Below are positions 5,669-22,831 of a DNA stretch of 64,000 nt, piece after piece; position 1 is the first letter of the stretch; every line of letters begins with the position of its first letter. The DNA comes from Paracyclopina nana (Eukaryota; Arthropoda; Copepoda; Cyclopoida; Cyclopettidae), in the NCBI GenBank assembly GCA_019096065.1, contig JAGUCH010000008.1:5027001-5091000 (forward strand). Reading direction: 5' to 3'. The notes under the pieces are model-generated. The model had not been told where the DNA came from. It worked only from the letters and a program-made list of their open reading frames with translations, and made no database searches. Made by a program: the position numbers and the translations under genes.

Positions 5669-7666
5669 ATGCCAAGGTGGGCAGATACTCTCCTTTTCTC
5701 CTCTCTTGTAATTATAACTTTGGTTCAAGGCCAACAAGAAAGGCCAAACTTTGTCTTCATCCTTGCTGACGACCTAGGTGAGTTGTCTGGTAATCCTCTG
5801 AATATCTTGTGTACATTAGACATTGTCTTACTATAAAAGGTTTCAATGACATTGGCTACACCAACCCTGAGGTAATAACTCCCAATTTGGATGCTTTGGC
5901 AGCAAGTGGAATCATCTTGGACAGGAATTACGTTCAGCCTGTTTGCACACCAACCAGATCTTCACTGATGACTGGAAGATATCCATACAAAATTGGCAGA
6001 CAGGTATGCGATAATAATTGATTTGACTTTTCGCAAATAATCCTAACTTACCTTTTTCTCAAAGGGAGTTCTGCCTATCTTACCCAATCAGCCAACTGGG
6101 TTAACCCTAGACCACAAGCTTCTGCCTCAGCACTTGCAGCAAAGTGGATATGCTACCCACATGATAGGAAAGTAAGAAACTTGCCTACTGTTGATGGCTA
6201 AAAGCACTTTTAAGTCCTCTTTGTAAAAGGTGGCATTTAGGGAGCTGCAAAACTGACTTTTTGCCGTTAAACCGAGGATTTGACTCATTTTTCGGCTTTT
6301 GGTCGGCTGCAATCGTAAGCAATAATTTTAAAAATATCACAAATTGATGACTGTGAATTTTTATTATGTAGGATTACTATGACAAAACTGTCCCTGGAGG
6401 GCTTGGTGGTAGTAGCTGTTATGACTTATTCTCAAATGAGACCATATATGAAGATAGGGAAACTTACTCAATCGTAAAATAAGGAAAATTAATCAGTGCC
6501 AGTAATTACAAGATTTTTTTTAGGAATTGCACGCTGAAAAAGCAATAGAAGTCATTTCAAGCCATGACCCAAGTAATCCACTATTTTTGTACTTAGCCCT
6601 GCAATCTCCACACACTCCACTGCAGGTTCCAGAGGTGAGAAGAGGAATAAATCTTAACTTAGAGGCTCTACAAATCCTTTTGCTTTCACAGAGATTTGAA
6701 GATATGTACCCTGGAGTGAGAGGCCCAAGAAAAACATATTTAGGCATGGTGACAGCAATGGACGAAGCGATTGGCTTAGTTATTGAGGCCCTCAAATCAA
6801 AAGGCCTCTATGAGAACTCAATCATAGTGTTTTCCAGTGATAATGGAGGCATGCCTTTGACAGGAGGAGCATCTAATGATCCTCTGAGAGGAATGAAGGG
6901 CAATTTGTATGAAGGAGGTGTAAGAGTGCCCGGATTGGTCCATGCTCCAAAATACATCCAAAATTCAGGGTACTTACCCCTCAAATATAAACTAAAATTA
7001 AAAATAGGACTGCCTTGTTTAGCAAAGTCAATTCCTAGGAATGAATTAGTATCACAATTAGCATTCAGTTTTTTCAATCCAAAAATAGATGCTTGATTAC
7101 TACAGGAAACATGTAGGCTTATAATTTAAGGTCTTTTTTATATAGTTCAATCTATGGGAATTTGCTCCATGTCACGGATTGGTTCCCCACCATTCTAAAA
7201 ATGGCCCAAGTTGATGACTACGACTCAATAGTGACTGGAATTGATGGTGTGGATCAATCTTCAGCCATTTTTGGACCCAGCCAAAAAGAGCAACCGAGGT
7301 AAATTCAATTTCAGCCAATAGTGGGGTGACTGTTCAGTTAACATTTATGCTTAAAGGAAAATTGTCGTCAACGAGTTGAGTACCATCAACTTGGGCCATT
7401 TTAGGGGAGCTTTTCAAATTGATGGAGGCTGGAAACTGGTGCTGAATCCGGCTGGAACAATTCTATTTAATCGATACGAATTGTACAATGTTCTGGACGA
7501 TCCGAGTGAATCCAACGACCTATCCGATGTTTACCCTGAACTCTTTGAAGAAATGAAACTCATGATGGATGAATTGTTTGAGGAAATGGTTCCAGAAGAC
7601 AATCCTGATTCATTAGATGTGGACGTTTGCGATGAAAACGGCAACATTAGAACTGGCTGGTGTTGA
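5669..7666 (+). CDS. Arylsulfatase B-type sulfatase, secreted/lysosomal
   Basis: Nine exons (5669-5777, 5840-6003, 6065-6171, 6230-6314, 6372-6473, 6524-6634, 6692-6969, 7146-7298, 7357-7666) with GT-AG introns join in phase into 472 residues. An N-terminal hydrophobic segment ([14 protein letters not shown]) is a signal peptide. The sulfatase active site is complete: metal-binding DD at 34-35, the formylglycine motif CTPTR with Cys72 as the residue to be oxidised, Lys-His in KWHLG, the [10 protein letters not shown] histidine, SDNGG, and the lysine of [10 protein letters not shown]. The order and spacing match the ARSB/ARSI/ARSJ group, which removes sulfate from N-acetylgalactosamine 4-sulfate in dermatan and chondroitin sulfate; the exact substrate cannot be read from sequence. 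Most introns are about 50-85 bases, the longest 176. AATAAA follows at 7706. Confidence 0.93.
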
Positions 7667-9639: not shown

Positions 9640-12600
9640 TTAAATCACTTCAATTTGGCCAGATGAGCATGAGGTGTCACTTGTCTCCAGAATGCCTGTA
9701 AGAGAATAAGAATTAACTTTGGGTGTACACCACCAAAAAGCAAAAAAGCATCATAATTACTTGGAGTGGTGGTGAGCTTCTTTTGTCTCGTTTCAATGGG
9801 CAGCAGAATTCTTCTCCTCGCATTTATGAACCAATTGTTAACTTGGAGCAAAGACAAGTGGGTTTGCTGAGCAATTTGCCTCTTTTCGTCTTCTGTTGGA
9901 TATGGATGCTGAAATGGAGGAAGACAAAAGAAAGTAGTCATAGTAGTTGACGATGGGATTTTTGTCCCATTTTCAGCACGAGAGAAAGAAAAGGGCCATT
10001 ATTATTGCTCCCCCCTAAAAAGGAGAACAACAACAGCAGCAGCAGCACAAAGACAAATTTGCATCAAACTTCCACGATAGCCATAAAAAAATCCCCGCCT
10101 GAAACTTTGGACTTTCTTTTTTAATAAATCAACTTTTGTTTTTTATCAGGTTTTGTTGTCTGGTGGCACCACTGTCCAATTGGCCATTCCGGCCAAGCAG
10201 CCGTCCAGCCAACTGGCAAAAACACTGGCGCCACCTGGTGGTAATTTTTCAGGGAAACATAAACATGGACAGTTAATATTAGCTAATGGCATTTTTTGTT
10301 GCTTTTAATGGCTTTTTGTCAAACCAGTGCTATACCCTTTTCAGAATGGAATTAGCCTTGTGCACAGGGTTTTTTGGCGCAAAAAGTGGCTCGTATAGTT
10401 GTAGTAGCAATTCTCCCTCATTCGGAATTATCGCCATTAAGAGCTCTCATTATAGCCCTTGTAATTGTTTTTAAATGGGATTGCACTGGCGTAATCATGC
10501 AAGCCTATTCAAAATTGCTTTTCTCTAGGTACACATTGCTTCCTGCAAGCTCCTCCTCATCAAAAAGAAAAGATTAGACATGATAAATTACCACAATATG
10601 CTGGAACAACCAGGCGCGCATCACATTTGTGGCGAATCGAGGCAAAACCCCACGTTTTTGCTGAATTCTTGATGATTGCAGTAGTGGATTTTCCAAATTC
10701 TCGACGTCATCAACAAGCCCCGCTAATGTGGTACCTAGGCAAAAAAACCGTAATAACAAATTGACACCGAAACTACTATTTTAATGCAAAAACTTACGAC
10801 ATCTAATAATAATCAAGCTGTTTTCAGCTATTCTTCGCTCACATCGTTATTGTCATTTAAAAGGCCGATTTCATATAAGCAAGCTCAAATAAGCAAGGTA
10901 TTTTGGAGGCCTATAGCTCAGCAACTACTCAATCGATGAGGTACATCGAGGCCATCGAGGTACATAAATTTGGTAGGATTCATGAGAAGAGCATAATAAG
11001 CCACCATACCAAATTTCAATTAGATCTGATGATCCCAAAGCTAGTGTGACTGCCTGCCCAATAAGACAAGCTAGATATCTAGCTTTGCTAATAAAATGGA
11101 CTCCACTATACGGCCTCGGAACTTAATCAAATTTGAAACACAGCTGTAGGTTGACATTTAGATGAGCCATTTTGGTGCCAATACATTCAGTATTTGCTGA
11201 GATATCAGCCTCCAAAGATCCTAGCTAAGCTTGCCTTAGGTTTTCGAAAATATGAAATCGGCCCGAATGTGTCATTTTTCAAAGCATCAATATTACCAGT
11301 AACTTACTTGAAGCTATTGAGTCGTTTTCTATGGATGATGGGTCTGGAAATGGATTTGAAGCTATTTCTTTCAAGGGTGTGGATCCGTCAATATTGATGG
11401 TAGGTAGCTGCACTTTTTTGTGCCTCCTCTCAAGCTCCCTCTGGTGTTGCAATTTGGCGAAACTTTGCAAGTGATGACTTCCCATGCTATTTCTCATCAT
11501 CATTGTACTGGCTGATCTTTGCTCTAAGTCTAATACAGTCCCTGAAGTTGAAAGAGGAGCCTGGAATTAAATTGAGGGCCACAACTTTACTACCCCCAGG
11601 TTTGCCAAAAGGAAAATTGCAGTTTTCAAAAAAAAAGTAATTGTGGGGCCTCTGCTACGTTCCAATCAGCAAGTTTGTGGTGGTGATCAGTGCATTTTAG
11701 TAGTGCATCAAATTAGTGAACGACAAAAAAAAGTCTTTTTGGGTCACGCATTGAAAGATCCCTCTACTCTTTTATGTCTTCCAAAATATTTTGTTGGATA
11801 TAGCGAAAATTGTAGAGGGCGCTTTTGAGATGAGCCGCCCTAGGTGACCCAACCCGTACGTACGTGCGTTACAGTACACTTGAAGAGGACAATTCTTACA
11901 TTATGATGGGCCGCAACTGGATGATGATAGTACATGGCTGCAGCAGCCGCAGCCGCAGCTGCTGCCTGGTTTTGTGACATTGCATGTGGCGGAGGGCCCC
12001 CCATCATTCGAGGGGGCCCGGGGGGCATAGCACCCCCGCTGTTACTGTCATCACTGTCATACCCTCCGTAGTCACTCCGTAGTAAGTTTTCACTTTGCAT
12101 TTTCCCTTTGAGGCAAGTGATGTACCGGTTACAAAAGTCTTTGCACAGCTCCTGAACTTTTTCCAACTCCAGCAGGTGAATCCTCAACACCTGAATCGCT
12201 TTGATCATCTGAAAATTGCAATGATGGATTACCAAATTTTGCAATTCACTTGTTTTTTGCTCTTACCAGATCATTGACGTCTTGATTGTCAGTAAAAAAT
12301 GGCTTGCCTTCTCTGCCTTGGTGCTGAACGAAAGCCTGAATATCTAGGTTGAAGCTCTCTGTTGAAGGACAATCAGTTGACTGGGTGGCCAATTCGCACT
12401 TTTCGAAAAGAAGTGCCAAAAGTGGGAACAAGGGATGCCTAAAGAAATTTAATGAAGCAGGCCGTTCTCATATTCCCGCAAAAAGCAAAGCTCAAAAAAA
12501 GCTAAGCAAACATTTAAAGCTAAGAAGCTGCTTCGATTAAATGTTGAGCGAAATTAACCAAATCAAACCAGCTATATCACTCAACCTAATACAAAATGAA

Positions 12601-13099
12601 GCAGCTGCCTAAATGTCTAAATGTTGAGTGTTTGCTTAGCTTGGTTTTGCTTTTTGTGGCAATATGAGAACGACCAAGTATCTATAAAAAATCTTTGATA
12701 TTTAAAAATTAAATATGAAATGGCTCTTCCTTATAATAAAGAAGACCCGTACTTGTAAATTGCTCGTTTATCTGCCTCAAATTGAGCAGTTTCGTCTGTG
12801 ACTGAGGAGAGTGCGGACGCTGATGCAGCTGCGGCTGCGGCTGCGGCCGCGGCTGCGGCTGTGGTCATGTAAGAACATGATGGGGATTCCCGATTGACCT
12901 GGCCAGGAGCAGATGGGTCAAAATCTCGACTATGTTGTGATGAATTTGGAGCTGGAGAGGAAGCGTCACTCCCAGTCTCGTTGTCTTGATGGGGAGGGGC
13001 GTGGCCTCTCAACGGGGGCGGGGTCTGGGCGCTGTCATAGAGGCCTCTGCCATTTGATGACGAGGATGAGCTTGACGAAGGATTGACTAAAGCTGCCAT
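9640..13099 (-). CDS. PKNOX: PKNOX/PREP TALE homeodomain transcription factor
   Basis: Seven exons read in phase: 13099-12753, 12438-12267, 12208-11900, 11560-11308, 10734-10592, 9908-9761 and 9695-9640, giving 475 residues (human PKNOX2 is about 472). The N-terminus is low complexity with Ser and Ala runs. The MEINOX/PBX-interaction domain is split over exons 1-3 ([45 protein letters not shown]). The homeodomain is split over exons 5-6 ([20 protein letters not shown], then [16 protein letters not shown] and [12 protein letters not shown]), with the TALE PYP insertion and Ile50. HPYPTEDEK and RRRIL are PKNOX rather than Meis/homothorax. The family heterodimerises with PBX/Extradenticle and binds DNA in the nucleus. 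The last intron (9760-9696) may be retained, giving a hydrophobic tail to a stop at 9645; the spliced tail [17 protein letters not shown] looks more normal. Confidence 0.92.
10156..10241. promoter_or_regulatory. Paired inverted CTCF-like element (copy A) in the PKNOX gene
   Basis: A perfect reverse core (GCGCCACCTGGTGG) at 10228-10241 is preceded by a weak forward half (TGGTGGCAC) at 10161-10169, with the start-to-start offset of 72 seen in other copies. GCCGTCCAG lies 19 bases from the reverse core. It sits in the PKNOX intron between the two homeobox exons. Confidence 0.5.
10863..11264. mobile_element. MITE in PKNOX intron 4, TIR GGCCGATTTCATAT
   Basis: The left end GGCCGATTTCATAT is matched in reverse at 11250-11263. 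Inner parts of the arms also pair loosely (AGCAAG, TTTGGAGGC, AGCTCAGC). Length about 400 bp, noncoding. The end sequence resembles those of the elements at 12460 and 57233 (GGNCGTTCTCATATT). No clear target duplication. Confidence 0.65.
12460..12675. mobile_element. MITE in PKNOX intron 1, TIR GGCCGTTCTCATATT
   Basis: The left end GGCCGTTCTCATATT is matched by GGTCGTTCTCATATT on the opposite strand at the right end. Pairing extends through GCAAAAAGCAAA and GCTAAGCAAACA. About 216 bp, no coding capacity, sits only 21 bases from PKNOX exon 2. Confidence 0.75.
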
Positions 13100-13109
13100 G
13101 CTTTTTTCT

Positions 13110-15442
13110 TATGCGGATCAATGGAAGATTTTCTTTTTTGGTTTTTTTTCACGTTGGATTTACATCAACTGAGAAACAACATTGCTCCTGAAATTGGAAG
13201 AAGGGTCAAACAGGTTAATGAGGCTGTGGCTAATGTGCATAACGAGCATTGCAAAACGTCTGTTGAAGCATAGTAAGATAATTTGTTTTTTATAAGGTGT
13301 GTATTCAATCTTGGTCTTTTTAGGACAATTTTGATGTATTGGAATGTGCATTGAATTCTCTGGCTGGAATCAAGGTGGAAAATTGTAGCCATGGTGGAAG
13401 AAGGTAGTGAGACAAAAAAAAGAGTAAAACTTTTTTGTCCAACCTCAATGGTAGATGTTTCACAAAGAACAACAACAACAGAGTGAATTAAAAACGCATC
13501 AAGACTCACAAAAATACTAGCATAGCGCTACAGACCTACATGCACACTGTGGGCAAATTCACACAAAATAATATGAGAAACTATTCATAGTAGTGATATG
13601 GCTTAGGATGATTTTCCCATGGCCAAGTGTGTGTTGTGGCACTTTTTGGGCTTCACTACCTCTTTATTTCACTTTTTTCATGCCACATAATTGCCCAGTG
13701 ATTTGAAGAAAAATGCAGCCAAAAAAGAGAGCGAGCCATAACACAACTCGTGATTTGCTTCTAATTGAATCTGGACGAGGAATCCTTTTTCAATTAGAAA
13801 TCCACAGATCCGAATAGCCATACATACATTCTTCTTTTCTATATCTCCCCTTTTACGAGGCAATTTTCAGTACACTATGGTGACTTCATTTACGGGACGC
13901 GAGGGAGCATGTGAACTCTCAGTTTTACGGTCAGTAAAAAGGCCGTAAAACGCGTAGAATATGGCTGCTACTCAGCTGCTGAGCAGCCACTTATACGAAC
14001 CTATTAATGTAAGCAGAACAAACCGAGGTTTATGGCTCGTAAAAGTGATGCCAAGTGGCAGGAGCAACAATTTGTCACCAAATTATTTGGCTATCAATCG
14101 ATCACCTCAATCACGCTGTCGATCAATGCTTTGCCCTAACACTGACCATAGCTGGCATGAAATATGCATTTTGATTGACCCTTTCCTAATAATAACAACC
14201 AGAAACAGTTGTAAGTAGTGGTGCTGCTAGAGCTTTCTGCTTCTGCTGCCAGCTCGTTTATAAGCAGGCAATAAAAAAATGGCCAAGAACGAATTGCAAA
14301 ATCTATCTTTTAACTAGGCCACTTCTAATGTAACTGCAGTAAAACAGTTGCCAAGCAAAAAAGCTCATTTTCGGCCTTTGTGGCTAATCACGTTTTAATT
14401 GCCATAGCGAATGCTCAGAAAAGAGCCATTGACAGATTTTCAAGTTATTTATAAGCTTTAGGTTTTTTAAAGCCTGTTCTAAAAGGTTTTTATGCTGTAG
14501 CTGCACAAAATACACTTTCTTAAATTAGAGACCTGCTCAAGGGTTTTAAAGTTTAAGTGACTTGACTTGATGTTAAGATCAGCCTTTGATCTTTGATGCA
14601 TTTAGCTTTTGAAATTGCGAAACTAGAAAATAATCAAGGGAAAAAAAGGCTTAAAATATGAATGGTGTTCATCTATTCAGGAAAATCATTCGAATTTCAG
14701 TTAATTTCACTCTATAAGCACTAAACACTGCTCTTTCTAACAATTAAGGATAGATGAAATGTAGTTAAAAAGTGGCCAAGCTAAGAGAGCGCACTCTATT
14801 GGCCAAAATCAATGGCAGCAATGTACCTATTAAATATTAGGTGTAATTGCAAATGACTGGGTAATGTTGCGAAATTATCTGTTTGGATCGACATGACGAT
14901 TTGTCACGGCATTTGACCATTTCTACACATTTATTGCCGGTCACACACACAACTTCAGAGACAACAATTAGATGGGCCACATATTTCATTGACGAATGGC
15001 TTATAACGCGTATGATTTCATTGATTTAAAGCCTACTAAAGGACCATTTGTTTCACTAAACAACAATCTTATTGCGATAAATTACCCAGCAAAGCATGAA
15101 TTACTTCTTTTGCCTCGACATAATTTCCTCTGATAAAAAAATGGCCATAAAACACAGGATGGGCTAATCAGTTGGCAAAAAGTGAAAAAAACCCGGGCAA
15201 AATAAGCATAATTGAAAAGAGTTTACAAGATCAATGAAGACGATTTTGCTTAGTCAAGGTTGGTCAGCAGATTTTGACCCTTATTTTTTATTCCACGCAT
15301 ATTCGCTGGTTTACATAAAAAGCCATAAATTCCGCCAGCAATAATTTTTGTTAGTCAAAAAATTCCTCTACTTAGTTTTCCTTTAAATTCAAGCTGCGAA
15401 AAGTCAGCAAGCAGATTCGAGCTTAAAAAGAACAGTTCTTAC
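13110..15442 (-). other. Inferred first intron of PKNOX
   Basis: No conserved coding segment, RNA gene or strong repeat is apparent. It is assigned as intron only because a donor-bearing GC-rich exon lies at 15443-15640 and the coding start at 13099. Confidence 0.35.
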
Positions 15443-15640
15443 CTTCTCGAGGGAAAGTGTGCTTCTTTTCGTGGCTGATAAAGAGTGAATTTTCGGATCT
15501 GATCCGTCTTGAAGTTGGTTTCGTAGTTAACTGTTTGGCAGTGCCGGCGTCAAAAGTGTTGTGGAGCCGCTCTCAGTTTTCCCGGCCGCCATCTCCGCTC
15601 AATTCGCCCACCACGGCCATATCACTCGACTGAGACAAAA
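15443..15640 (-). promoter_or_regulatory. Probable noncoding first exon and promoter of PKNOX
   Basis: A minus-strand donor (GAAG then GTAAGAACTG) ends at 15443. The GC-rich stretch to about 15640 includes GGCCGCCATC (YY1-like). It would splice over about 2.3 kb to the coding exon, most likely at CATAAG just upstream of the ATG at 13099. The acceptor has a weak pyrimidine tract, so the junction is uncertain. Confidence 0.4.
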
Positions 15641-16443
15641 ATGCGCCTAACGAGCTTTTGCCGTCAACCCTAGCACTTTTTAGATAATTTCGCGACAACC
15701 CTAGCCGCCATGCAGACACCAACAATAACTACCATTTTGTGGCCGGTTACCACACATTTTTTTATCCTCCAAAAATCTCGGGCTGAGTAAAGTTCAACCT
15801 TTTTCAGGCCAATAAATCTTCGAGCAGCTAAGAGAAGAAATTCTAATCCTTTTCTGTGTGTGTGTGGGGAAACACACTTGACTGTTTGGATTTTTTTCTG
15901 GTCAAAAGAGAAACCTCTGGGCTTTTGTCAGTTGTCCTTGCTTCAAAATGGAATTGGTCACACTCCATAGTGCATCTGTAAAATCCACCAGAAGGAGAAT
16001 AAGGGGGGGAAATAAGCTTTCCAAGTTCAACAAACCGTTAAAGTTATAAAAAGTACAACAAGGGACGCGAATCGCCGTCAGGTGGCGCTTTTTGGCATTA
16101 TTAGCATTTAGATGAGAGCCTAGAAAATCAGACCGCTTTCGGAGAGGCAAAACTGAATGAATGGGGTGCCAATTGGCCTCTTTATGAAGAAGATGCAGCT
16201 TGGCGTCTCGAGGGAGCAATCCATTAGCGCACTTTGACAAATGATGCCATAAAATCGGAAGCCTCAAACGGCTTTTTGCGCCGGCAGAAGCCGATTGCGT
16301 TTGAAAACTCCCGCGCTCGCGTGGCTGCTCCGCCATCAATCACAATTCTTCCACATTTGACATACATAAATACGTTCGAGTCTGCTAAATGGTTACTTTT
16401 CCCTTTTGAGCTCTGGCCATTATAGTAGTATGATGGATAAAAT
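15641..16443. other. Intergenic spacer between the two PKNOX-family genes
   Basis: No supported gene. It contains one strong CTCF-like site at 16075-16088. An open frame at 15902-16339 on the minus strand lacks family similarity and splice or start context. Confidence 0.5.
16075..16088 (+). promoter_or_regulatory. CTCF-like site between the PKNOX paralogs
   Basis: CCGTCAGGTGGCGC matches the metazoan CTCF core (CCACCAGGTGGCGC) at 12 of 14 positions. It lies between the polyA signal of the upstream paralog and the PKNOX promoter. Binding is inferred. Confidence 0.5.
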
Positions 16444-16555: not shown

Positions 16556-17767
16556 TCAGTAGATGATTCGGGCTTCTTGGCCGCCTCCAGGATCACTCCA
16601 CAGTTTTGAATGCCGTTCGTTTAGAGACCTGCAAAATAGGGGCATTTTTCAGGGTTTTCACAAATAATAGGAAATTTTACCTCGCTGCCAGAATTTGGTC
16701 GGGATCAGGTGAGTGTGACATAAGCAAACTTTTGCTGCTTCCACTGCCACTGTCGTCGCTGTCCTCGTTCTCGTACACCGGCGGCAATTGATCAGCTTGC
16801 AATTTGTGCTTCAAAGTTGTAATGTATTTATGGCAAAATGTGTCGCATAGCTCTTGGACTTTGCGCAACTCTATCAAATGAAACCGTAATATCTGAAGAG
16901 CCATCATCATCTGAAAAGAAATCTTTAGCCAGCTGAATTGGGAGATAAAAAGGCTGAACGTTTACAATTTCGTTAGTTTCTTCATTGTCTGAAAGCATAG
17001 GCGACCAATCTTCACTTTGTTGGCGAAAGAACATTCGAACTTCGGAGTCGATCGACTCCAAGCTTGGCACTTCAATGGACTGCGTTGATTCATCGCATTT
17101 TTTCAGCAGCATCACCAATACCGGGTATAATGGATGCCTAAAAAGAGGCCATTATTCAAAATCACGACCATTCAAAACAGCAAAACTCCATATGGATGGC
17201 AATTTCCCATTTGACAGGTAAAAACGCGGCTCTATCTATTATAAAACCTAATGACATAAGTTCTCAAGCAAAATGATTGAAACTCAAAAACTACAATTGG
17301 GCATAAGTAGGAAGTCACAACTTGGCAAAGCTTGCTGATATAGGCAAAACACAAATGCACAAGCTTTATAAGAAGGAATAGCAGCCAGCTTTGCACTGCT
17401 GGAAATTAAAAGAGCATCAAATACAAAGACATTTGCATGGAATGGGCCGAAAACTAAAGTTACGACCCCTTTTTCACAAGATTTTAATTTGCAGCCAGCT
17501 AGCTGCATTTGATGCAAAATCTTCTTCTGCCTGCGAGAGAGTTTAGAGTGCTCTAGAGGTCCATCAGTTTAAGCTGAGAGAGCAGAAATGTCACATAAAT
17601 AAAACTAACCTAAAAATGGCCTGTTTGTCAGATTCCTGGACTGCTGCTGCTGTTGCTGTAGAGGAGGAGCTCGATGTGAATTTGAAATGGACATCCTCTA
17701 GCTCTCCTCCCTTTGAGGAGGAAGAAGTTTCTTCGAATTGAGATCTGGAGTCCATTTCGATTATCAT
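16556..17767 (-). CDS. Homeodomain-less PKNOX paralog (MEINOX-only protein)
   Basis: Exons 17767-17610, 17137-16966, 16910-16681 and 16628-16556 join in phase into 210 residues. A TGA lies in frame upstream of the ATG, after a TTTCAG acceptor at 17802, so a noncoding 5' exon exists. The protein has a Ser/Ala-rich N-terminus, then both MEINOX halves: [29 protein letters not shown], and [20 protein letters not shown]. Exon 2 is 172 bases with the same phases as PKNOX exon 2, so the genes are tandem duplicates. After an acidic DSDDSGSG segment the last exon adds 23 unrelated residues ([15 protein letters not shown]..) and stops. No homeobox exon follows; exon 3 ends in phase 2, which fits no downstream PKNOX homeobox exon. 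I infer a PBX-binding protein that cannot bind DNA itself, like homeodomain-less Meis/hth isoforms or plant KNATM. Confidence 0.85.
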
Positions 17768-18323: not shown

Positions 18324-21300
18324 TTAACAGCTCCTGACTGTAAGCCACAAGCAATCCTGATACAAGGTTTCGGATTCGAAAATCAGTTTTTTGGCCCAAA
18401 CCCCTTGCAATAGTGTGAAAAGTTGGAAAATTAAGTTTCATGACCACTGGACCACTCTAGGGTGGTCAAGTGGTGCGGTAAGCAAAATGCTGTTTAGATT
18501 AAGGCAAAAATGAATGGGGGCCTAGCTGGAGGTGTGGGTATGGCCAGAAATCAACTATACCCTAATTATCTAGGCCCTGGGGGGGTCTCTAGGTGTCAGG
18601 GAAAAAAAGTTGAAAAACGTAAACAAACTAGTTGAAAAATGGCCAAAATTCACTTTTTCGGACCCTACTTTGAGGGCATTTTCCTCCCATGTCAGTGGAT
18701 GGATTTTTGATTTTTCAACTCTGGATGAAAGTCAAAGATTGGAACTGTCATTACAAAAAAGAAAATTCATTATATGTCTGCAGATGGAGCTCCTGGAGCG
18801 ATTCAAAAATACACATTTTTTACAAAAATGACTTTACAGTAAAACATATAAAACTGACAAGCGGAAGTGAAGTCAAATACAAACATTTTTTTATCATCAC
18901 AAACATGTCAGTGCACACCCAGAGGCTTCTCCCAAACAAAAAAATTCAGGATATATAGGCCCTGCCCCTGGCCTGGAGCCTGGGCGGTCCCATTTATTCT
19001 CTGCTGTAACAGCTACATAGGCCAACAGGGAGCCCTTGGCTCCCATGTCAGTGGATGAAAGTGTCCTTTTTTGGCCTCCTGAGGTCTGTGCTGACCTGGA
19101 GGCTTGGGCCAATCAAAAAAATTCAGGGTACATTGGCCCTGGCCAGGAGCCAGGGCGGTACCGGTTATAATCTACTGCAGCAGCTTCATAGGCCAACAGG
19201 TAGCCCCTGGCTCCCATGTCAGTGGATGAAAGTGTCCTTTTTCAGCCTCCTGAGGTCTGTGCTGGCCTGGAGGCTTGGTCCAAGCAAAAAAATTCAGGGT
19301 ACATTGGCCCTGGCCAGGAGCCAGGGCGGTACTGGTTATGCTCTGCTGCAGCAGCTACATAGGCCAACAGGGAGCCCCTGGCTCCCATGTCAGTGGATGA
19401 AAGTGCCCTTTTTCAGCCTCCTGAGGTCTGTGCTGACCTGGAGGCTTGGTCCAAGCAAAAAAATTCAGGGTACATTGGCCCTGGCCTGGAGCCAGGGCGG
19501 TACCGGTTATACTTGCTCTGCAGCAGCTTCATAGGGCCAACAGGTAGCCCCTGGCTCCCTATGTCCAGTGGATGAAAGTGTGTCCTTTTTGGCCTCCTTG
19601 AGGTCTGTGCTGACCTGGAGGCTTGGTCCAAGCAAAAAAAAGAATCTGTACATTGGCCCCGGGCCTGGAGCCAGGGCGGTACCGGTTATACTCTACTGCA
19701 GCAGTTTCATAGGCCAACAGGTAGCCCCTGGCTCCCATGTCAGTGGATGAAAGTGAACCTTTTTTGGCCTCCTGAGGTCTGTGCTGACCTGGAGGCTTGG
19801 TCCAAGTAAAAATTCAGGGTATACTAGCCCTGGCCAGGGAAAGCCAGGGGCGGGTATTCGGTTTAGAGTGCTCTTTCGCTGCAGCAGCTACATGAGCCAA
19901 CAGGGGAGCCCCCTGGCTCCTATGTCAGTGGATGAAAGTGTCTTTTCAGCCTCCTGAGGGTCTGTTGCTGACCTGGAGGCTTGAGTCCAAAGCAAAAAAT
20001 TCCAGGGTACATTGGCCCTGGCCAGGAGCCAGGCGGTACCTCGGTTATGCCTTCTACTGCAGCAGCTTCATAGGCCAACAGGTAGCCCCTGGCTCCCATG
20101 TCAGTGGATGAGAGGCCCGTCCTTTTTTGGCCTCCTGAGGTCTCCAGTGCTGACTCTGGAGGCTTGGTCCAAGCAAAAATTCAGGGCTGCATACTGGCCC
20201 TGGCCAGGAGCCAGGGGCGGTACTGGTTATGCCCTGCTGCAGCAGCTACATGAGGCCAACAGGGAGCCCCTGGCTCCCATGTCAGTGGATGAAAGTGCCC
20301 TTTTTCAGCCTCCTGAGGTTCCTGTGCTGACCTGAGGCTTGGTCCAAGCAAAAATTCAGGGTACATTGGCCCTGGCCAGGAGCCAGGTCGGTACCGGTTA
20401 TGCTCTACTGCAGCAGCTACATAGGCCAATATGGAGCCCCTGGCTCCCATGTCAGTGGATGAAAGTGTCCTTTTTCATCCTCCTGAGGTCTGTGCTGACC
20501 TGGAGGCTTGGTCCAAGCAAAAAAATTCAGGGTACATTGGCCCTGGCCTGGAGCCAGGGCGGTACCGGTTATACACTCTGCTGCAGCAGCTACATAGGCC
20601 AATATGGAGCCCCTGGCTCCCATGTCAGTGGATGAAAGTGTCCTTTTTCATCCTCCTGAGGTCTGTGCTGACCTGGAGGCTTGGTCCAAGCAAAAAAATT
20701 CAGGGTACATTGGCCCTGGCCTGGAGCCAGGGCGGTACTGGTTATGCTCTGCTGCAGCAGCTACATGAGCCAACAGTGAGTTTCCTGGCTCCCATGTCAG
20801 TGGATGAAAGAGTTCTTTTTCTAGCCTCCTGAGGTCCTGTGCTGACCTGGGAGGCTTGGTCCAAAGCAAAAAAATTCAGGGTACATTGGCCCTGGCCTGG
20901 AGCCAGGGCGGTACCGGTTATACTCTACTGCAGCAGCTTCATAGGCCAACAGGTAGCCCCTGGCTCCCATGTCAGTGGATGAAAGTGTCTTTTTTTGGCC
21001 TCCTGAGGTCTGTGCTGACCTGGAGGCTTGGTCCAAGCAAAAAAATTCAGGGTACATTGGCCCTGGCCAGAGCATCAGGGCGGTACTGGTTATGCTCTCG
21101 CTGCAGCAGCTACATGAGGGTCAACAAGGGAGCCCCTGGCTCCCATGTCAGTGGGATGAAAGTGCCCTTTTTCCAGCCTCCTGAGGTCTGTGCTGACCTG
21201 GAGGCTTGGTCCAAGCAAAAATTCAGGTGCAAACATTACCTGGCCCCAGGAGCCAGGGCGGTACCGGTTATGCTCTACTGCAGCAGCTTCATAGGCCAAC

Positions 21301-22831
21301 AGGTAGCCCCTGGCTCCCATGTCAGTGGATGAAAGTGTCCTTTTTTGGCCTCCTGAGGTACATTGGCGTTGGCCCGGAGCCAGGGCGGTACTGGTTATAC
21401 ACTCTGCTGCAGCAGCTACATAGGCCAATATGGAGCCCCTGGCTCCCATGTCAGTGGATGAAAGTGTCCTTTTTCATCCTCCTGAGGTCCAAAAGCAAAG
21501 AAGATCTGAACACCGATGAATTGTGGGTAGAAATGGAGTCCCATTTGTGATCAAAAGGTCTAATGAATCCTTGAAAATAAATTTGATAAACAGGCTATTG
21601 ATCTGAGAGTCTGAAAAAACTCATAAGAATGAAAAATTAACAAAATGTATAGCTGAAACTGCCCAGACTAATGTACCCTTGGAATTTTTTGAGTTGGACC
21701 AAGCCTCCAGGTCAGCATTATGACCTCAGGAGGCTGAAAAGGGTACTTTCATCCCGCATTGACATGTGGTCAGGGGCTCCTGTTGGCTTCATGTAGCTGC
21801 TGCAGCAGAGTGTATAACTGCACTGCCCAGGCTCCAGGCCAGGGCCAATGTACCCTGAATTTTTTTATTTGGACCAAGCCTCCAGGCCAGCACAGACCTC
21901 AGGAGGCTGAAAAAGGACACTTTCATCCACTGACATGGGAGCCTGTCTGGCCTCATGAAGCTGTTGCAGTAGATTATAACCGGTACCGCCCCTGGCTCCC
22001 TGGCCAGGGCCATATGTACCCTGAATTTTGATTGGCCCAAGCCTCCAGGTCAGCACAGACCTCAGGAGGCCAAAAAGGACACTTTCATCCACTGACATGG
22101 AGGCCAAGGGCCTCTGTTGGCCTATGTAGCTGTTACAGCAGAGAATAAATGGGACCGCCCAGGCTCCTGGCCAGGGGCAGGGCCTATATATCCTGAATTT
22201 TTTTGTTTGGGAGAAGCCTCTGGGTGTGCACTGACATGTTTGTGATGATAAAAAATGTTTGTATTTGACTTCACTCCGCTTTTAAGCATCAGTTTTATAT
22301 GTTTTACTGTAAAAGTCATTTTTGTAAAAATGTGTATTTTTGAATCTGCTCAGGAGCTCCATCTGCAGACATATAATGAATTTTCTTTTTGTAATGACAG
22401 TTCCAATCTTTCGACTTTCATCCAGAGTTGAAAAACTCAAAAATCCATCCACTGACATGGGAGGGAAAATGCCCTCAAAGTAGGGTCCGCCAAAAAGTGA
22501 ATTTCAGCCATTTTTCAACTTAGTTTGGATGATACGTTTTTTTCAACTTTTTTCCCTGACACCTAGAGACCCCCCCAGGGCCTAGATAATTAGGGTATAG
22601 TTGATTTCTGGCCATACCCACACCTCCAGCTAGGCCCCCATTCATTTTTGCCTTAATCTAAACAGCATTTTGCTTACCGCACCACTTGACCACCCTAGAG
22701 TGGTCCAGTGGTCATGAAACTTAATTTTCCAACTTTTCACACTATTGCAAGGGGTTTGGGCCAAAAAACTGATTTTCGAATCCGAAACCTTGTATCAGGA
22801 TTGCTTGTGGCTTACAGTCAGGAGCTGTTAA
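18324..22831. mobile_element. Foldback-type DNA element with 171 bp subrepeats in its arms
   Basis: The ends are TTAACAGCTCCTGACTGTAA and its reverse complement. The outer 600-700 bp arms pair almost perfectly (18328-19000 with 22160-22827). Inward, the left arm runs into about fifteen direct copies of a 171 bp unit and the right arm into about three inverted copies. The short centre (21490-21700) has no open frame that I recognise. TTAA at both ends could be a piggyBac-type target duplication or simply part of the TIR. The architecture (long TIRs with internal tandem units, little coding DNA) resembles Foldback/Galileo elements. Near-identical outer arms suggest recent origin or ongoing homogenisation. 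Confidence 0.85.
19040..21480 (+). repeat. 171 bp tandem repeat array
   Basis: The word CTCCCATGTCAGTGGATGAA recurs at 19040, 19211 and 19382 (exactly 171 apart), then at about 170-185 base spacing to about 21446, roughly 15 copies. Units share CCTGAGGTCTGTGCTGACC and the self-complementary CCTGGCCAGGAGCCAGGG. Middle copies (19550-20300) carry many single-base insertions, while the flanking copies are nearly identical; this could be true decay or sequencing noise. Open frames across the array are by-products of the period (171 = 3 x 57). Confidence 0.9.

Follow-up and report, generated by a model that had tools for sequence, protein, structure and literature searches.

A predicted MEINOX-only tandem paralog of PKNOX in the copepod Paracyclopina nana

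Here we describe a predicted gene of the copepod Paracyclopina nana that encodes the MEINOX domain of the PKNOX/PREP family and no homeodomain. The gene lies on the minus strand, from 17767 to 16556, of a 64,000-nucleotide stretch of contig JAGUCH010000008.1 (positions 5,027,001 to 5,091,000; hereafter the window, whose own coordinates are used throughout), with an intact PKNOX gene downstream of it in the same orientation (seven exons, 13099 to 9640, 475 residues). Judged by sequence comparison, the MEINOX-only gene is a PKNOX-derived tandem paralog. We favor, with a probability of roughly 0.6, the reading that it is an old tandem duplicate of PKNOX that lost its homeodomain and whose product partners Extradenticle (Exd)/PBX proteins without contacting DNA. 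It would then be a candidate stand-alone modulator of Hox-cofactor activity, in which the part that grips Exd/PBX is kept and the part that binds DNA is absent.

The first-pass annotation of this DNA had proposed four in-phase exons encoding both MEINOX halves, and this structure held up on re-analysis: the exons join in matching phases across three GT...AG introns of 472, 55, and 52 nt into a coding sequence of 633 nt (210 residues), the second exon has the length and phases of the second exon of PKNOX, and a polyadenylation signal lies close to the predicted distance of about 110 bases past the stop (Table 1). When compared with Pfam, the 210-residue product proved to be a MEINOX protein, matching Meis_PKNOX_N (PF16493; curated cut-off, 27 bits) with 109.6 bits (E 1.6e-31) over profile positions 3–116 of 116. 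No second Pfam domain, and hence no homeodomain match, was found in it at E values up to 1. In the same comparison PKNOX, run as a 476-residue version with one residue extra, matched Meis_PKNOX_N with 151.8 bits and Homeobox_KN with 74.3 bits. Because the TALE homeodomain of the PKNOX/PREP family is absent, the MEINOX-only gene is a derived, truncated relative of PKNOX and no full PKNOX. An NCBIfam scan gave zero matches, and the sole hit of a phmmer search for a solved MEINOX structure, made with a 206-residue version without the first four residues, was an unrelated protein at E 0.7. The gene model is least secure at exon 4. The homeodomain-less character of the product is independent of this exon, because an in-frame TAA overlaps the donor of exon 3 and, without the last splice, the reading of exon 3 ends in it at once (LAAR-stop, 186 residues). 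The earlier statement that no homeobox exon precedes the full PKNOX gene was also confirmed: in permissive tblastn searches with PKNOX E4, E5, and E6, the best match between the two genes was a 19-residue stretch at 14509–14453 (E 1.1), which we take as chance, the best match in the whole window outside PKNOX reached E 0.12, and the helix-3 exon of PKNOX was the sole match within the window of a whole-assembly search with PF05920.

The derivation of the copy from PKNOX rather than from hth follows from features that it has in common with PKNOX, namely the E1/E2 and E2/E3 exon boundaries, a DK-AI motif before HPL (DKQAIF in the copy, DKRAIY in PKNOX), and an HR2 that occupies one exon in both genes and is split in hth. 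Consistent with this, exon 2 is identical to PKNOX E2 at 21 of 58 aligned residues and exon 3 to PKNOX E3 at 33 of 59, and both exons are closer to PKNOX than to hth in local alignment (scores of 139 against 70 for exon 2, a rough comparison because the hth exon-2 piece is short, and 163 against 145 for exon 3), the comparison being among the genes of this one assembly. At the nucleotide level, blastn between the two loci gave a single clear match, a 73-base stretch of exon 3 with 72.6% identity (E 2.7e-6), and for introns and flanks the best E was 0.059. The last exon, described in the first pass as short, with a stop, and unrelated, is indeed short and carries the stop; it is perhaps not wholly unrelated, since part of it can be aligned with PKNOX E4 at 5 identical residues out of 10 (shuffle fraction 0.0108, 5000 shuffles). 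This weak likeness is suggestive only, and the exon may be a remnant.

The divergence of the two MEINOX sequences points to an old copy that was under long constraint in the past, though not necessarily today. Over 105 aligned MEINOX codons, 49 residues are identical and no stops occur; differences at codon positions 1, 2, and 3 number 43, 25, and 65 (nucleotide p-distance 0.42), and the proportion of differences is 0.77 at synonymous sites (pS, saturated) and 0.33 at non-synonymous sites (pN). It is because synonymous sites are saturated while 49/105 residues are still identical that we regard the copy as old and formerly constrained; had it been neutral since the duplication, its non-synonymous change would have neared the synonymous level. 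In 2000 unconstrained simulations at equal nucleotide distance, 1.1% stayed free of stops, and the most residues kept in any was 41, against the 49 observed.

We then considered how such a protein would act. Human PREP1 is described as needing residues L63, L66, L67, and L70 of HR1 and I122, L125, L129, and L132 of HR2 to bind PBX1 and enter the nucleus, and passages of the same report state that PREP1 without its homeodomain retains PBX1 in pull-downs and in joint nuclear foci (PMC7545097). The PKNOX of P. nana matches PREP1 letter for letter at these eight contact positions and at lettered positions 64, 69, 71, 73, 124, 130, and 134; the copy departs from it, conservatively, at two of the eight contact positions (L66V and I122L), so that six residues are identical and all eight are hydrophobic. 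We propose that PKNOX was duplicated in tandem long ago, that the upstream copy then lost its homeodomain exons, and that the remaining gene would be expressed as a MEINOX-only protein of ~210 residues. This protein would bind the PBC domain of Exd/PBX via two hydrophobic helices, as in PREP1, and the bound Exd would be stabilized and held in the nucleus. Because it would bring no homeodomain to DNA, the protein would displace Hth or PKNOX in some Exd complexes, so that targets needing DNA contact by Hth/PKNOX would be weakened or redirected. The role of competitor for PBX/Exd, suggested as possible in the first-pass annotation, is likewise a proposal here.

Several observations weigh against this proposal. 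Identity is more frequent among contact residues (6/8) than among the other residues of the domain (43/97), but without statistical significance (Fisher p 0.096), and HR1 has diverged strongly (21/58 identical). A recent loss of constraint would be compatible with the single sequence at hand. Further, for the mouse homeodomain-less MEIS1 isoform (MEIS1-HdL), passages of PMC13379096 report cytoplasmic action and no detectable interaction with PBX3, which speaks against a simple competitor model.

To place the gene in its genomic context, we searched the whole assembly (91.95 Mb, 10 contigs, cited below as C with a number). Protein and Pfam searches, in which all candidates were scored (5, 7, and 8), located MEINOX sequence at three loci, namely hth (~3.83 Mb on the same contig, C8), PKNOX, and the MEINOX-only gene; a second MEINOX-only copy elsewhere in the assembly was not found by these searches. 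The search with Homeobox_KN (PF05920) gave 23 matches, 20 of which were translated and read; of the others, one lies in a Hox locus that was read and two weak ones (C1:14476422 and C2:16894310) were left out. By their motifs, the 20 appear to be PKNOX, hth, three PBC genes, Iroquois-, Mohawk-, and TGIF-like genes, Six genes, and other homeodomains, and no orphan MEIS/PKNOX homeobox was among these 20 of 23 matches. Motifs likewise identify Hox genes on C5 as Antp, abd-A, and a Ubx that contains QAQA, which shows an arthropod genome; the Antp homeodomain is 100% identical to that of Drosophila. The three exd/PBC loci (C2:6532366-6533060, C2:16044108-16044924, and C4:7714580-7715629) each combine a PBC domain with a TALE homeobox match, which at two of them ends before the domain end, presumably at an exon end, and they are possible partners of the predicted MEINOX-only protein. 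By the account in part of PMC9933525, most insects have one member of the PBX family, and Diaphorina citri has an extra exd retrogene. It is conceivable, although doubtful, that the Hox-cofactor system has expanded here as a set, with three exd/PBC loci and a dedicated MEINOX-only PKNOX paralog that sets the availability of each Exd to Hth and PKNOX; if true, this would be a titration circuit built by duplication, not splicing.

Our preferred reading, a separate PKNOX duplicate that partners Exd/PBX, has to be weighed against other explanations, among them splicing between the two tandem genes. The first-pass annotation had asked whether exon 3 is ever spliced into homeobox exons. With the donor as modeled, joining exon 3 to PKNOX E3, E4, E5, E6, or E7 leads to a stop within 29 codons, so this route is blocked in frame for E3–E7, and the only open join for exon 3 is to PKNOX E2, which for E1–E3 would yield a protein with a doubled MEINOX and a whole homeodomain. 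Chimeras from E1 or E1–E2 could nevertheless form: E1 joined to PKNOX E2 and E1–E2 joined to PKNOX E3 or E4 are open and keep the homeodomain whole, and E1–E2 joined to PKNOX E6 is in frame but lacks the first part of the homeodomain. Because E1 or E1–E2 can be joined in frame, the gene may not be independent of PKNOX. The exons might thus be an alternative 5' module of PKNOX within one complex locus, giving full-length proteins that differ in their N-terminal part when E1 or E1–E2 is spliced into PKNOX and a homeodomain-less form when the transcript ends with E3–E4. Such an arrangement would suit the tandem position of the two genes close together and the homeodomain-less PKNOX isoform reported, in the relevant part of PMC9933525, for D. 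citri; nevertheless, we consider it unlikely, given the stops that follow exon 3 in joins to E3–E7, a last exon and polyadenylation signal that belong to the MEINOX-only gene itself, and a candidate first exon of PKNOX located between the two genes.

Could the copy instead be a decaying partial duplicate, perhaps still transcribed, whose function is fading? The strongly diverged HR1, the Pfam score below that of the parent (109.6 against 151.8 bits), and the missing C-terminal part would all be expected of such a relic. However, the reading frame, six splice sites, start, stop, and polyadenylation signal are intact despite saturated synonymous sites, and pN is far below pS; decay of such age would have broken the gene, and we regard this explanation as improbable. 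A homeodomain-less protein might also have a cytoplasmic role outside Exd/PBX, for instance in the control of protein degradation, as mouse MEIS1-HdL is described in part of PMC13379096 as mostly cytoplasmic and as stabilizing ATOH1 with the COP9 signalosome. The hydrophobicity kept at the PBX-contact positions and the association of homeodomain-less PREP1 with PBX1 in the nucleus, as given in the passages on that protein (PMC7545097), argue otherwise and make this role quite improbable here. An assembly artefact, either a split third TALE gene or a false duplication, is scarcely credible: nothing speaks for it except that there is a single assembly, whereas the p-distance of 0.42 over MEINOX codons is far too large for a false duplicate and an orphan MEIS/PKNOX homeobox is absent from the 20 of 23 matches read.

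Genes of this kind are already known. The first-pass annotation held the gene to be a PKNOX tandem paralog without a homeodomain, which stands, and the paralog is also intact and formerly constrained. It further set the gene beside plant KNATM as an animal case, but another such gene was already on record in animals: C. elegans psa-3 is described in part of PMC4448998 as a TALE gene of the Prep family whose homeodomain was secondarily lost. According to a passage of PMC3711040 that cites Arata 2006, PSA-3, CEH-20/Pbx, and NOB-1/Hox have been suggested to form a tripartite complex for T-cell fate, and the only Meis-class genes of C. elegans named there are psa-3 and unc-62; the nematode Prep gene therefore seems to have lost its homeodomain with no full-length copy left, whereas in P. 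nana a full-length PKNOX is retained next door. By gene prediction, the MEINOX-only gene is a psa-3-like homeodomain-less Prep gene, with the MEIS domain kept and the homeodomain lost, and its origin is likely independent of psa-3 (nematode versus arthropod). The existence of KNATM and of homeodomain-less Meis/hth splice isoforms, both mentioned in the first pass, is borne out by parts of the literature. KNATM of eudicots is presented in PMC4617109, in part, as a stand-alone gene that has KNOX1 and KNOX2 and no homeodomain, probably derived from a KNOX lineage by loss of the ELK and homeodomain; it resembles the P. nana gene in being separate and without a homeodomain, but it belongs to the plant KNOX lineage, whereas the present gene belongs to the PKNOX lineage of animals and would be expected to partner PBC proteins. 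Isoforms of Hth, MEIS1 (Meis1d/HdL), and insect PKNOX described in portions of PMC9933525, PMC13379096, and PMC3157405 have the same architecture, MEINOX minus homeodomain, but are splice forms of genes for the full protein, in contrast to the separate gene modeled here. No arthropod MEINOX-only gene was among the matches listed in open-licence literature. What is new is a tandem duplicate that has its full-length parent as a neighbor, the genome also containing three exd/PBC loci. Counting psa-3 and KNATM, it would be the third instance found in which a MEINOX/KNOX protein lost its homeodomain at the level of the gene, apparently independently. Homeodomain-less MEIS/PKNOX products in the examined literature are mostly splice forms, which makes it difficult to tell what they do apart from the full protein; were the gene separate and its parent retained, the homeodomain-less product alone could be removed.

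Table 1. Features of the MEINOX-only gene and the neighboring PKNOX gene (window coordinates)
Feature	Position	Strand	Description
MEINOX-only E1	17610..17767	-	158 nt, ATG to donor, phase 2 out; ends ...ESDKQAIF+R
MEINOX-only E2	16966..17137	-	172 nt, MEINOX-A/HR1 half, phase 2 in, 0 out
MEINOX-only E3	16681..16910	-	230 nt, MEINOX-B/HR2 half and acidic/Ser tail, phase 0 in, 2 out
MEINOX-only E4	16556..16628	-	73 nt, short last exon including stop
MEINOX-only polyadenylation signal AATAAA	16445..16450	-	~106 bases beyond stop
Candidate PKNOX 5' untranslated exon/promoter area	15443..15600	-	putative; donor GAAG/GTAAGAAC; upstream end arbitrary
PKNOX coding E1	12753..13099	-	ends ...EADKRAIY+K
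PKNOX E2	12267..12438	-	172 nt, phase 2 in, 0 out
PKNOX E3	11900..12208	-	phase 0 out
PKNOX E4	11308..11560	-	
PKNOX E5	10592..10734	-	homeodomain, first part
PKNOX E6	9761..9908	-	homeodomain, second part, helix 3
PKNOX E7	9640..9695	-	stop

In the interval between the two genes, the observed-to-expected ratio of CpG is 1.05 in 15201–15600, and it is also high (1.14) in 16001–16400, so CpG alone cannot locate the PKNOX promoter. Upstream of the MEINOX-only gene, a tandem array of ~14 copies of a 171-base unit occupies 18966–21359, in a stretch very low in CpG (ratio 0.10–0.25), and seemingly inverted copies of the unit lie near 21779–22176. Downstream of PKNOX, the plus strand carries a sulfatase gene at 6524–7096 (Pfam Sulfatase, 72.1 bits), with a second piece at 7355–7666 that matches Sulfatase_C below the cut-off (18.1 bits). 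Neither Rfam nor a tRNA scan (ARAGORN, on its bacterial setting) gave a match in the window.

Two further observations were made elsewhere in the assembly. The joined sequence of a phosphagen kinase at C8:2693723-2694419 compared best with PDB entries 4rf6 (arginine kinase, 718 residues) and 4wo8 (taurocyamine kinase, 716 residues), and its lead over single-domain kinases is inflated because the scores of these two entries each add two stretches. The best-matching chains are cnidarian and schistosome; the hint of a non-arthropod that they give is overruled by the Hox genes, and whether the kinase is of an unusual type for an arthropod is raised as a question only. Finally, ~110 residues around a homeobox read alike on C6 and on the small contig C10 (268 kb), which may be a duplicate piece of C6.
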